Assembly: GCA_921293015.1 (NCBI GenBank)
Contig: OV121088.1
Span: 4,154,001 to 4,218,000 of the forward strand
DNA length: 64,000 nt
From: Phorcus lineatus
Lineage: Eukaryota; Mollusca; Gastropoda; Trochida; Trochidae
Direction: 5' to 3'
Made by a program: the position numbers and the translations under genes. Below are positions 41,401 to 50,400 of this stretch, one piece after another. Under the pieces are notes generated by a model. That model was not told the origin of the DNA, made no database searches, and saw nothing but the letters and a program-made list of their open reading frames with translations. Within the stretch, counting starts at the first letter, position 1. Each line of letters begins with the position of its first letter.

Positions 41401-44400
41401 ATATTTTTCCATAATGTTAAAAAAATTGTTCTAAGCTTATTGTCTGTTTACGATGTCCTGACAAAAATAAATCGAAACCTGGAAATCCCATTGCTAAAAT
41501 CCCTGTCATTGGTTACTATATCGATGGAAGTCGTCCGTTTCATCCAATCAGAGCGATGTTTACAAGTGATTATTATCAAGTCTCATGCTGTATAATATTA
41601 TGAAGTTCGGAATTGGCAGCTAGATACTTACACAGGCATGTGGCTGCATGTGTTTTATCATCAAAACTGAACCGTATATGGTAGGTTAGGCTCTGATGTC
41701 TAAATTTGATGACAATTTATTACCTTTACTAGTCATTATTTTATTGAAATGAAAACTCCATTAACAAAAACGCGAAATATTTGAATTGAAAATTTATTAT
41801 TTCATTTCTGCACGCACTGTACAAAAACCTACTGCGAACACTAGACCACAACCCCTGCAGTCCACCTAATGTCCAACCCTTCAATTTTTTTTAGAGAGTT
41901 ACCTCGGTTCGTCTGTGAAGAATGCTGTCATCACCGTGCCAGCTTACTTCAACGACTCCCAGAGACAGGTCTGTTTCACTTCCTACCTGGTCAATCCTCC
42001 TACACGTATCACTCCTTTAATTACTCTGATATCATTGGGCCCCATACCCTCCTATTACTTTATATAACCAACCAATGAAATGAAATCGCATCCAACGATA
42101 GCGGCAGCACCCGGTTGAGTCAGGACAAGTCTCAATAATATTAATGAAAGATAGTGCAGCCAACCACAGGCAGTGTGCTGGATGAAAAATTACTAGCAAT
42201 ATAGTGGTAACTATTTTGGATTGATTTCTGAAAGAAAACTTTAAATGACTTTGTTTGAAAATGGTAGGAGAATATGTACTAAAACATAGTTCTGTGAATG
42301 AAGAAGTATCCATCAAATCTTAAACTTTATTTCCTGAGTTACCTCTAGAATGCCATTCACACGGCTTACAATGACATTGGTTGGACAAAGTTTGATGCTC
42401 TCGACCTCCGTATATTGATTTGCTATCTGTTACAGGCCACGAAAGATGCTGGTCAGATTTCAGGCCTCAACGTGCTCCGAGTTATCAATGAGCCAACAGC
42501 TGCTGCTCTGGCGTATGGCATGGACAAAACTGCGGATAAGATGTAAGGAAAATTGAAATTATTTCTTTATTTCCCAAAACTATATATCAAAGTGACAAAA
42601 TTTAGGATGTTATGAAATTTAAGGTAAAATAATGCATACTATCATACTAGTCTTACAATCAAGTGGGCATTTACTTATTTTACATTTTGAAAACTTCAGA
42701 CACTGATTTAATTTGTCAGATATTTCTCATGTATAAGAGTCACTACTCGTTAACAGTAATCTAAGATATTCCAATGGTTAAAACTGGTTATTGAGGAGTT
42801 ATTTCTAGACTAGCAGACTTCAATGGTTAGACAGATTATTTATATTATTAAGAAATTTTTCAATCTCTGAATCTCTTCATTTGGGCTCAATTTGCTGGAA
42901 CCAAGTTGAAACAGTTGTTTATACTGTCACCAAGAAACTGTTTATATGTGATTTTGAATGCTTAGTAACACGAGGTAAGATCAACAGATTCATACATAAT
43001 TTCTTATTACAGCATAGCCGTGTATGATCTTGGTGGCGGAACATTTGATATTTCCATCTTGGAAATCCAGAAAGGAGTCTTTGAAGTGAAGTCCACAAAT
43101 GGTGACACCTTTTTGGGTGGTGAAGATTTCGACAATCATCTAGTCAACTTCTTGGCGACCGAATTCAAGAAGGATGTGAGTTTGTTGAATTATTTATTTA
43201 TCTATATATATATATATTGTATAGTGCAGGGAGACTCAATGTGTTACCAGTGGCAAGCCATAAAATGCCAAAATTTTCAAATAACTTATCAAAGCATTTT
43301 TTAAATTGAGTGATATGAATGAAGAAAATTTTTATACTTAACAGAACAAAGGAATTGTCCAAAAACATTTTCATCAAATTTACTATTGATACAAAAGTAA
43401 CCCTGTCTGACTGGTTCCAGCAAGGACTTGATATCACGAAGGATACAATGGCGATGCAGAGACTGAGAGAGGCGGCAGAGAAGGCCAAGATTGAGCTGTC
43501 CTCCGCTCTTCAGGTTTGTGATTTATCTAGATTCTTCTTGTTAAGGGATGAGAACTTTTTGACTGACTTGAATTCTTTTGTGGATTGTTTGAATAAAATT
43601 AGACTTATGTGGCAACTAGATGAGATTGGTATTCTGGATTTGGTGGGACTCTGCTTTGTTTTACATGTTTCTGTTAAACTTTAATGATATGCTTTCAGGT
43701 TTGATTTACATGTCTTCAATCATGTGAGTTGAACACCTAACTCTTTGTTGAATGAACTCATCACTAGCAAGATTTAGATTGTGTTCAATACATTTGATAA
43801 AAACAAGCCCATCTCATAGAAAGTTTAGTAATGATTTTTTTTATGATAATAAAAGCATGGTCTCAGTTCTTTTCTGATAAGAGTTCATGAACAGTTCCAC
43901 AGATAGTCAGCGGACATTACTGTCGATGTGTTGTTCTGCGTTACATCTGTGGTAGAGGAATCTCAGTGAAGGAAGCCGTCTGGTTGATCTGTTCTGGATC
44001 TCTGGCGGTCGTCCTAACTGAGCGGGTTCTTGAGAGTTGGTCTGATTCCTGTGTTTCTGGCCATAGTTAATGGAACTTACAGGTCTAGATATGAAAATAT
44101 TAGAAATATAAAATCAGTGTATTTCGTAGTTAAGATCAGACCTTGAAGATGATTACCTATGTTTATGTCCTGTTTGAGTCAATTGAATCAACAACACAAG
44201 TTATATTTAGTGCAAATTCTTCCTGAAGTAAAGTAACCTTGCAAGACTCAACTTATGCCAGTCTCATTTATTATGCCTTGCCACATTTCCATAACTCGAC
44301 TGGATGGTCAGGGGGGTTGTGGGGCGGTGGTTAGGCTGTTCAGCTTCATATCAAGAGGTCTGTGGTTCGAATCCCATCTGGGGCTTGGCTACTTTGTCTG

Positions 44401-47400: not shown

Positions 47401-50400
47401 ATATAATGCGTAAATTTTAATCTAAGACAATTCAACAAAACTGTATATATATGATCAATCAGTGCTACAACACTTTCATCGCTATTTGAAAAAAAATAAT
47501 TTACAAATTAAATAATCGGTTTCTAAAGGTAGTTTGAGTCTCATGTTCATAGACTTGATTTATCCCTCTATGTATTGCCAGGTGTTCTCGACCGCAGCGG
47601 ACGGCCAGACTCAAGTCGAGATCAAAGTTCACCAGGGTGAGAGAGAGATGGCAGCCGATAACAAACTACTCGGGCAGTTCTCACTGGTAGGCAAATCTGC
47701 TATTACTTCACTTCCATAGACTCGAGAGAAGTGTCTGTTACACCAACAGTGTAGCATATATGTCGACGGCTGTTGGCATTGTCAGAAAATAACTGACTGC
47801 TAATGTTTCATGAACTTTAAAACTTTGAAACCATTTAAACCCTTATTGCCAGTCAAATGTATGGTGTTTGTCTTAAGGGGCTGTACCTGAGGTCTTTGAA
47901 GCTTTGTTGGTTGGTTTACCATTTGACAGAAATGTCCTGTTTCCAAAAATTGACTTTATTTGATAAAAAGTTCCACAGATAGTCAGCAGACTCTACTGTC
48001 GATGTGTTGTTCTGCGTTACATCTGTGGTAGAGGAATCTCTGTGAATGTAGCCGTCCGGTTGATCTGTTCTGGATCTCTGGTGGTCGTCCTAACCGAGCG
48101 GGTTCTTGAGAGTTGGTCTGATTCCTGTGTTTCTGGCCATAGTTATTTGAACTTACAGATCAAACCTTGCGTAAAGAAGATTAGCAAATGAAATAGTTCA
48201 GTGATGTGCAGACAATTGTTTGAAGTTAGTCTGTAGGAAACTTTGTTCTGTATGTATTTGTTATGTAAGATTTTGAGGTTGCTAAAAGAAATGGGGAAAC
48301 TTCTCACCTATGGAATCAACTGGTACCAATATTTGCTGAGTTGTTCAAATACACAAATCTCAAGTTCTTTACAAAGATAGTAGTCCTAGATTAATTGACA
48401 ATAGCATATCAAATGTTTTAGCTTGGAATCTTTAATTTTGTTCAGACATCCTTTCAATCAATAATCATTTGTATTAAATTTAGATTTTTCATTGGTTTGT
48501 TTTAAGGGTATATGAAATAAGCTAGTTGAATGCATCTGCTGTTCCACAGATAGTCAGCGGACATTACTGTATGTTTTGTTCTGCGTTACATCTGTGGTAG
48601 AGGAATCTCGGTGAAGGTAGCCGTCCGGTTGATCTGTTCTGGATCTCTGGCGGTTGTCCTAACCGAGCGGGTTCTTGAGAGTTGGTCTGATTCCTGTGTT
48701 TCTGGCCATAGTTATTGGAACTTACAGATCAAACCTCAAAATATTAGAAACTGACATTTTCATATCCTTTAAGAGCATTTGTCTGCTCTGTTTCGGAATA
48801 ATTTTTATGGTTAGCTTTTCATTGTAATGGTGTCTGTTTGATCAAAAAGAAAGTTGAATGATAACCTAAATTCACATTGTTTTATTGATCAGTCTTCCTA
48901 AAGGATATCCTAATGAGTGCCTCCTTTATATACTTATTCTGCTATGTAAAAAGCTTACATATAGTCATTGAACAATTTAGATCTTATATGAAAGTCGCCA
49001 GGTCGACCGTTTAAGACCAACAACCATAGGAGACATTCATTGCCTGTCTTCTTCAAGGTATATCTTTTGTTTGACACATTACAAAACTGTTAACTCCTGC
49101 ATTGTCCTCTCCAGGTATCAAAAAAACTATCACGCATGTTATAAACAAAATACTAAACAGCCTTCTATATAAAAGTTTTTACCTAACTGGTGACATGCCA
49201 CTTATCGCTCAAATATTGCCGAAGCATCGTTTAACAGTAATGGCTCACTCTAACTGTAGAATCATATATCTTATGTCTCCAGGTGGGTATCCCTCCCGCA
49301 CCTCGAGGCGTCCCACAAGTTGAAGTGACCTTTGACATTGACGCTAACGGCATCGTCAACGTGTCGGCCAGAGACAAGGGTACTGGCAAGGAACAACAGA
49401 GTAAGTCTTTGTTTTCATTTTTTTCATAAGTGATTTCAATTTTTATCGTAACCCATAGCAAATTGAATGTAACTAATTTCTGTAGGTTCAAAGTAATTCT
49501 AGGGTAGATGCTCATATCTTAAACCTGTCCCCATGAGTTTCAGAGCTGTCTGAGCCCTATTCTCCAGCTGTCTTCTTCTTGGGCACTCAGTAGTACAAGA
49601 ATAAAAGAGCATAATGTGGGCTACATTTGCAACCAGATGTTCTGGAAGTAAATAAATTTCAGATAGCAATTGTTATTACAGATGTACAATGACTATTCAT
49701 GTCATTTATATATGATTTGATAATTGTTTAGGTAGTATCAGTGTTGTCAATTTCTAGGACATTTTGCAAGAAGTGAGAAATAAAGCTCACTTAAAACAAA
49801 AGTTACAAATGGGAGAAATTCCTTGAGCAACCACTTGTGAATATACCACTGAACTTGAGGCGTTAAAGAATTATTATTGTTTACCTTTTGGCCAAATTAG
49901 GACATTATGTATATTTGAAATGTTTTTGCAGTTGTGATCCAGTCATCTGGTGGTCTGTCCAAGGAAGACATTGAAAACATGGTGCGCAACGCCGAGAAAT
50001 ATGCAGAAGAGGACAAGAAGAGAAAGGTGAGGGGTTAAGGGCCACAGGTTAAGGGTCAGAGTTCAGGTTAAAGGGTGGGATGAGAGGTTAAAGATTTGTG
50101 ATGCATAAGGAACGTACAGGAATATTTGGAAGTGGCTGTTTATATCGAGTCAATTGTTACAAGTTCCATTTTCAAATTCTTGTCATCCCTTTTTGAATAT
50201 TGACCAAAATGGAAGATCTGATAACTTACCTTTAGGAAATTTTAAAAGTTTGAAATGAACTTTTCCATTCTTCAAACAGACATTAATCTTTTTTTTAATT
50301 GATTGATGACATTGGATCATTCTATGCTGCAGTTATCTGACCCATGAGCTGAATATTTTTCCTTATCTATTAAACTGTCAATGCAAAATGATGGAATTTT

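Follow-up and report, generated by a model that had tools for sequence, protein, structure and literature searches.

On its forward strand, the window (the whole 64,000-nt stretch of DNA that was analysed) carries a gene for mitochondrial HSP70 (HSPA9/mortalin), outlined by 12 placed exon pieces that together make up an incomplete gene model (Table 1). The first exon piece is closest to PDB chains of mitochondrial stress-70 (6e-43), followed by DnaK (from 5.8e-38) and then by cytosolic and ER HSP70s (2.7e-24 and weaker), and the joined exon pieces match DnaK with 869 bits. Both the ranking and the joined match bear out the identity that the first-pass annotation had given the host. Two introns of the gene each harbor two copies of a repeat of 168–191 nt, all four on the sense strand of HSPA9, much as that annotation had described them (about 170–190 nt, two per intron). 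Similarity between the copies sets in at GTTCCACAG and ends just past an ACA box; their bounds were drawn from this onset to three nucleotides past the ACA, which makes the true 3' end a presumed one.

Table 1. Features of the HSPA9 locus, with positions counted in the window
Feature	Position	Strand	Starts of AGTCA, GTTAC, H box, GAGAGT, TAGTTA and ACA	Basis or remark
Mitochondrial HSP70 (HSPA9/mortalin)	40130..51379	+		Span of 12 placed exon pieces; incomplete gene model
HSPA9 intron with c1 and c2	43514..45451	+		GT...AG; flanking exon peptides ...KIELSSALQ and TDINLPYL...
c1, U19/SNORA74-type H/ACA snoRNA	43894..44084	+	43905, 43940, 43954, 44032, 44064, 44079	Rfam RF00090, 59.3 bits, E 2.3e-13; geometry
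c2, U19/SNORA74-type	44995..45162	+	45006, 45039, 45053, 45110, 45142, 45157	RF00090, 45.5 bits, E 2.4e-9; middle hairpin with 21-nt deletion
HSPA9 intron with c3 and c4	47687..49282	+		GT...AG; flanking exon peptides ...LLGQFSL and VGIPPAPRG...
c3, U19/SNORA74-type	47970..48160	+	47981, 48016, 48030, 48108, 48140, 48155	RF00090, 53.0 bits, E 1.5e-11; geometry
c4, U19/SNORA74-type	48541..48729	+	48552, 48585, 48599, 48677, 48709, 48724	RF00090, 59.1 bits, E 2.6e-13; geometry
Candidate C/D box snoRNA in a later HSPA9 intron	50932..50998	+		SNORD53/92-like, weak

A default Rfam scan of the window at the curated cut-off reported no snoRNA and a single weak tRNA match elsewhere (18696-18762, minus strand, 33.1 bits; no ARAGORN call; perhaps a tRNA-derived repeat). 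Selection by E-value (up to 1, in 5.7 kb) returned exactly four matches, all to SNORA74 (U19, RF00090), and in every copy the match covers model positions 1–201 of 201, with E-values from 2.3e-13 to 2.4e-9. The default scan was blind to the copies because their scores, 45.5–59.3 bits, lie below the RF00090 gathering score of 71, which is a curation threshold and not a biological feature. A search of 16 kb recovered the same four, together with one weak C/D match. The covariance-model check is thus favorable in the full length of all four matches and unfavorable in their scores, and it suggests that likely true copies are overlooked at the default SNORA74 cut-off in genomes like this one.

Pockets, boxes and fold

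In H/ACA RNAs, the distance from the pocket to the box is about 14–16 nt. In the copies, the H box AGAGGA, which conforms to ANANNA, has its first base 14 nt downstream of that of GTTAC, and the ACA, three nucleotides from the presumed 3' end, has its first base 15 nt downstream of that of TAGTTA; the pockets and spacings claimed in the first-pass annotation are thereby confirmed in each of the four. The spaced double-pocket pattern occurs four times in the window and in none of 200 Markov-1 resamplings (plus strand only). Taken singly, the first pocket with its box turned up 48 times over the 200 resamplings and the second not at all.

The predicted RNA folds into three hairpins rather than two. 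Each of the four copies has a 5' hairpin built of a lower stem of 8 bp (CCACAGAT/ATCTGTGG), followed by the pocket AGTCA/GTTAC and then by an upper stem, and a 3' hairpin that holds the pocket GAGAGT/TAGTTA. The middle hairpin, found in every copy as well and shorter by 21 nt in c2, is the most variable part of the molecule. Holding pockets and boxes open costs little over the free minimum (0.7 kcal/mol in c1, 1.0 in c2, 2.6 in c3 and 1.0 in c4). Standard pairs occupy 97.5% of 203 cells, as against 38.4–46.8% when the partners are slid by 1–3 columns, the former figure being favored by the derivation of the structure from the same four rows. Covariation among these four near-identical rows did not exceed that in shuffles, its one two-sided change being reached by 259 of 500; such rows are uninformative in this respect, and covariation was rejected as proof of structure. 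The two guide loops are indeed identical across the copies, as had been pointed out, but their identity says little on its own, given that the copies agree over most of the RNA, and for the same reason we dropped it as a sign of selection.

The full-length SNORA74 matches, together with boxes, pockets and a fold of the expected kind, support the U19/snR191-type identity originally proposed. The copies share with U19/SNORA74 the three-hairpin model over its full length, the H and ACA boxes, and guides at corresponding positions (GUCA/GUUAC and GAGAGU/UAGU). They differ from it in the second guide, which reads UAGUUA here and UAGUCU in the model consensus, and in scoring below the cut-off.

Predicted targets and mode of action

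By base complementarity, the guides match GUAAC-U-A-UGACU and UAACUA-U-G-ACUCUC, a target sequence drawn from the first-pass annotation and, in part, from a review (PMC7277114), and we presume that their target is the 28S helix-69 stretch GUAACUAUGACUCUC. Yeast snR191 is reportedly a single-copy independent gene and differs in this from c1–c4, which are intronic and four in number. The likeness lies in the target, since the pair of pseudouridines predicted for c1–c4 is the one to which snR191 is assigned (Psi2258 and Psi2260 of 25S helix 69, in an excerpt of PMC8307265), in agreement with what had been stated about the yeast guide. In the portion of a review consulted, H69 is printed as AmC-Psi-A-Psi-GAC... 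(PMC7277114).

At the level of sequence, there is good support for identifying c1–c4 as guides of the U19 type, directed at two pseudouridines of helix 69. We consider it very probable that they are paralogous U19/SNORA74 genes, processed from HSPA9 introns and guiding these two modifications. The computed parts of this reading are family membership, the geometry of pockets and boxes, the location within introns and the lack of a further copy in a DNA search of the assembly, to which we add transcription, processing, protein binding and modification as the parts that we infer. We propose that the copies would be transcribed within the HSPA9 pre-mRNA, and that dyskerin and its partners would assemble on the RNAs once these are freed from the spliced introns. 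Of the two uridines set off in the helix-69 loop GUAAC-U-A-U-GACUCUC, the first would be presented for conversion to pseudouridine by the pocket AGUCA/GUUAC of the 5' hairpin and the second by the pocket GAGAGU/UAGUUA of the 3' hairpin.

Are all four copies working genes? The loss in the middle hairpin of c2 and the unpaired cells of c3 mean that not every copy need be active. It is conceivable, if somewhat doubtful, that only some of them, c1 and c4 for instance, function as U19 genes, with c2 and c3 decaying duplicates on their way to pseudogenes. Such a course would account for c2 having both the lowest score (45.5 bits) and the 21-nt loss, and, in c3, for the cells left unpaired in helices 2, 3 and 5 as well as for a constrained fold that is less stable, at -49.1 kcal/mol, than those of c1 (-61.1) and c4 (-66.6). 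The guides, the H box, the ACA and the lower 5' stem are nevertheless intact in all four copies, and the sequence has decayed outside the RNA, not inside it.

Relationship and origin of the copies

Relative to c1, taken as reference, identity amounts to 85.6% in c2, 93.8% in c3 and 94.8% in c4. Outside the RNA, identity among the copies falls to near the random level, in contrast to the 86–95% to c1 inside. When the flanks were divided into ungapped 10-nt bins (n = 72, from six copy pairs, two sides and six bins), 68 bins held 0–5 identities, one held 6 and three held 7, all of these last four lying no more than 30 nt from the RNA. Conserved inside the RNA and eroded outside it, the copies look like old duplicates maintained by selection or exchange.

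The DNA search of the species' own assembly (957,807,699 bases in 74 contigs) found at least four places, all of them c1–c4, the count being a lower bound that diverged copies can escape. Elsewhere in the window, no match to c1 is better than one of 21 nt (E 0.009). Viral and prokaryote contigs, where such DNA is not expected, gave no exact match to one pattern each.

Within-gene duplication followed by decay of the flanks, perhaps with exchange between copies, is the most likely origin. Three columns of the 5' hairpin, two of which belong to one 2-nt indel, group c1 with c3 against c2 with c4, and two columns of the middle hairpin group c1 with c2 against c3 with c4. These conflicting groupings are suggestive of conversion between copies, but we do not claim conversion as shown because only about four independent changes are involved.

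One may consider instead an insertion of the copies as retroposons derived from RNA, which would explain why the limits of similarity coincide with the RNA boundaries; in humans, H/ACA copies are thought to derive mainly from retrotransposition, according to the excerpted text of PMC8178906. We regard this origin as improbable here. To the eye, the flanks bear neither a poly(A) tail nor an evident target-site duplication, the DNA search of the assembly found no copy elsewhere, and all four copies sit in one gene and in one orientation. Remnants of likeness in the downstream flanks, each of them weak, hint at ordinary duplication: 13 nt between c1 and c4, offset by one base (E 0.003), and 7 nt between c3 and c4.

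The host gene and its precedents

The U19 family itself is familiar, and what looks unusual is only which gene serves as host and that the copies lie clustered in it. The first-pass annotation held that multi-copy U19 in a chaperone gene was undescribed. Among the matches listed in the open-licence literature (titles and the beginnings of abstracts), none concerns U19 in HSPA9; the novelty claimed for it was too high, given U14 in hsc70 and U63 in HSPA9.

U14 (SNORD14) is a box C/D snoRNA, and it differs from the present case in its targets and in its host, which encodes cytosolic HSC70 and not mitochondrial HSP70. The likeness is that several copies of one snoRNA lie in introns of an HSP70-family gene, namely three in hsc70 of human, mouse and rat, as given in a part of PMC7277114. 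With U63 (SNORD63), it is the host that is alike: in the sections consulted, this snoRNA is placed in intron 11 of chicken HSPA9 (PMC2653536) and its human host is named as HSPA9B (PMC8629011), so that a vertebrate HSPA9 also serves as snoRNA host. U63 differs in being of the box C/D class and in having another target, A4026 of 28S in the numbering of the chicken paper (PMC2653536, in part). Unlike the gene described here, the U19 host of human and mouse is the non-coding U19HG (excerpts of PMC2653536 and PMC7277114). Here a conserved rRNA-modifying guide is placed in an HSP70-family host, in the company that U14 and U63 also keep.

Hosts are changed frequently by snoRNAs, which move freely among broadly expressed genes, as an excerpt of PMC3511168 describes, and U19 in HSPA9 fits this picture; the text of that paper makes no mention of SNORA74, U19, HSPA, heat shock, chaperone or terms in mollus-. 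According to the portion of PMC8178906 consulted, all expressed members share one host in 59.5% of human C/D families but in only 7.3% of H/ACA families, and by these shares the one-host U19 cluster resembles the habit of C/D families. It is a mild surprise to find every detected copy of an H/ACA family in a single host gene.

What might such a placement entail? We speculate, as a rather unlikely extension, that a single mitochondrial chaperone gene captured a complete U19 family, which then multiplied there in cis with exchange between copies; this would tie the dosage of the two helix-69 pseudouridines to the transcription of mitochondrial HSP70 rather than to that of a ribosomal or non-coding host. 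That the paired copies also affect HSPA9 splicing, or act as sinks for snoRNP proteins and so link chaperone and ribosome output, is very improbable: intronic snoRNAs that alter host splicing have been reported (PMC10324135, seen in excerpt), but nothing in the anatomy of the copies requires such a role.

Other elements were observed in the locus and its surroundings. The SNORD53/92-like candidate of the later HSPA9 intron scores 29 bits where the gathering score is 46 (E 0.025 in the 16 kb searched); by eye, two UGAUGA motifs and a terminal CUGA can be read between its AGCU/AGCU ends. The intron with c1 and c2 contains at 44310-44640, on the plus strand, a B-box-like GGTTCGAATCCC in a stretch that, to the eye, resembles a tRNA-derived SINE. 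An open frame of 584 aa at 29144-30895, on the minus strand, carries a DUF3504 domain (4.4e-12) and may be linked to Crypton-type recombinase-derived genes. A long minisatellite with 56 copies of a 34-bp unit occupies 22640-24553, and 56335-57395 is taken up by tandem arrays that overlap and whose units measure 96, 137, 145 and 241 bp.
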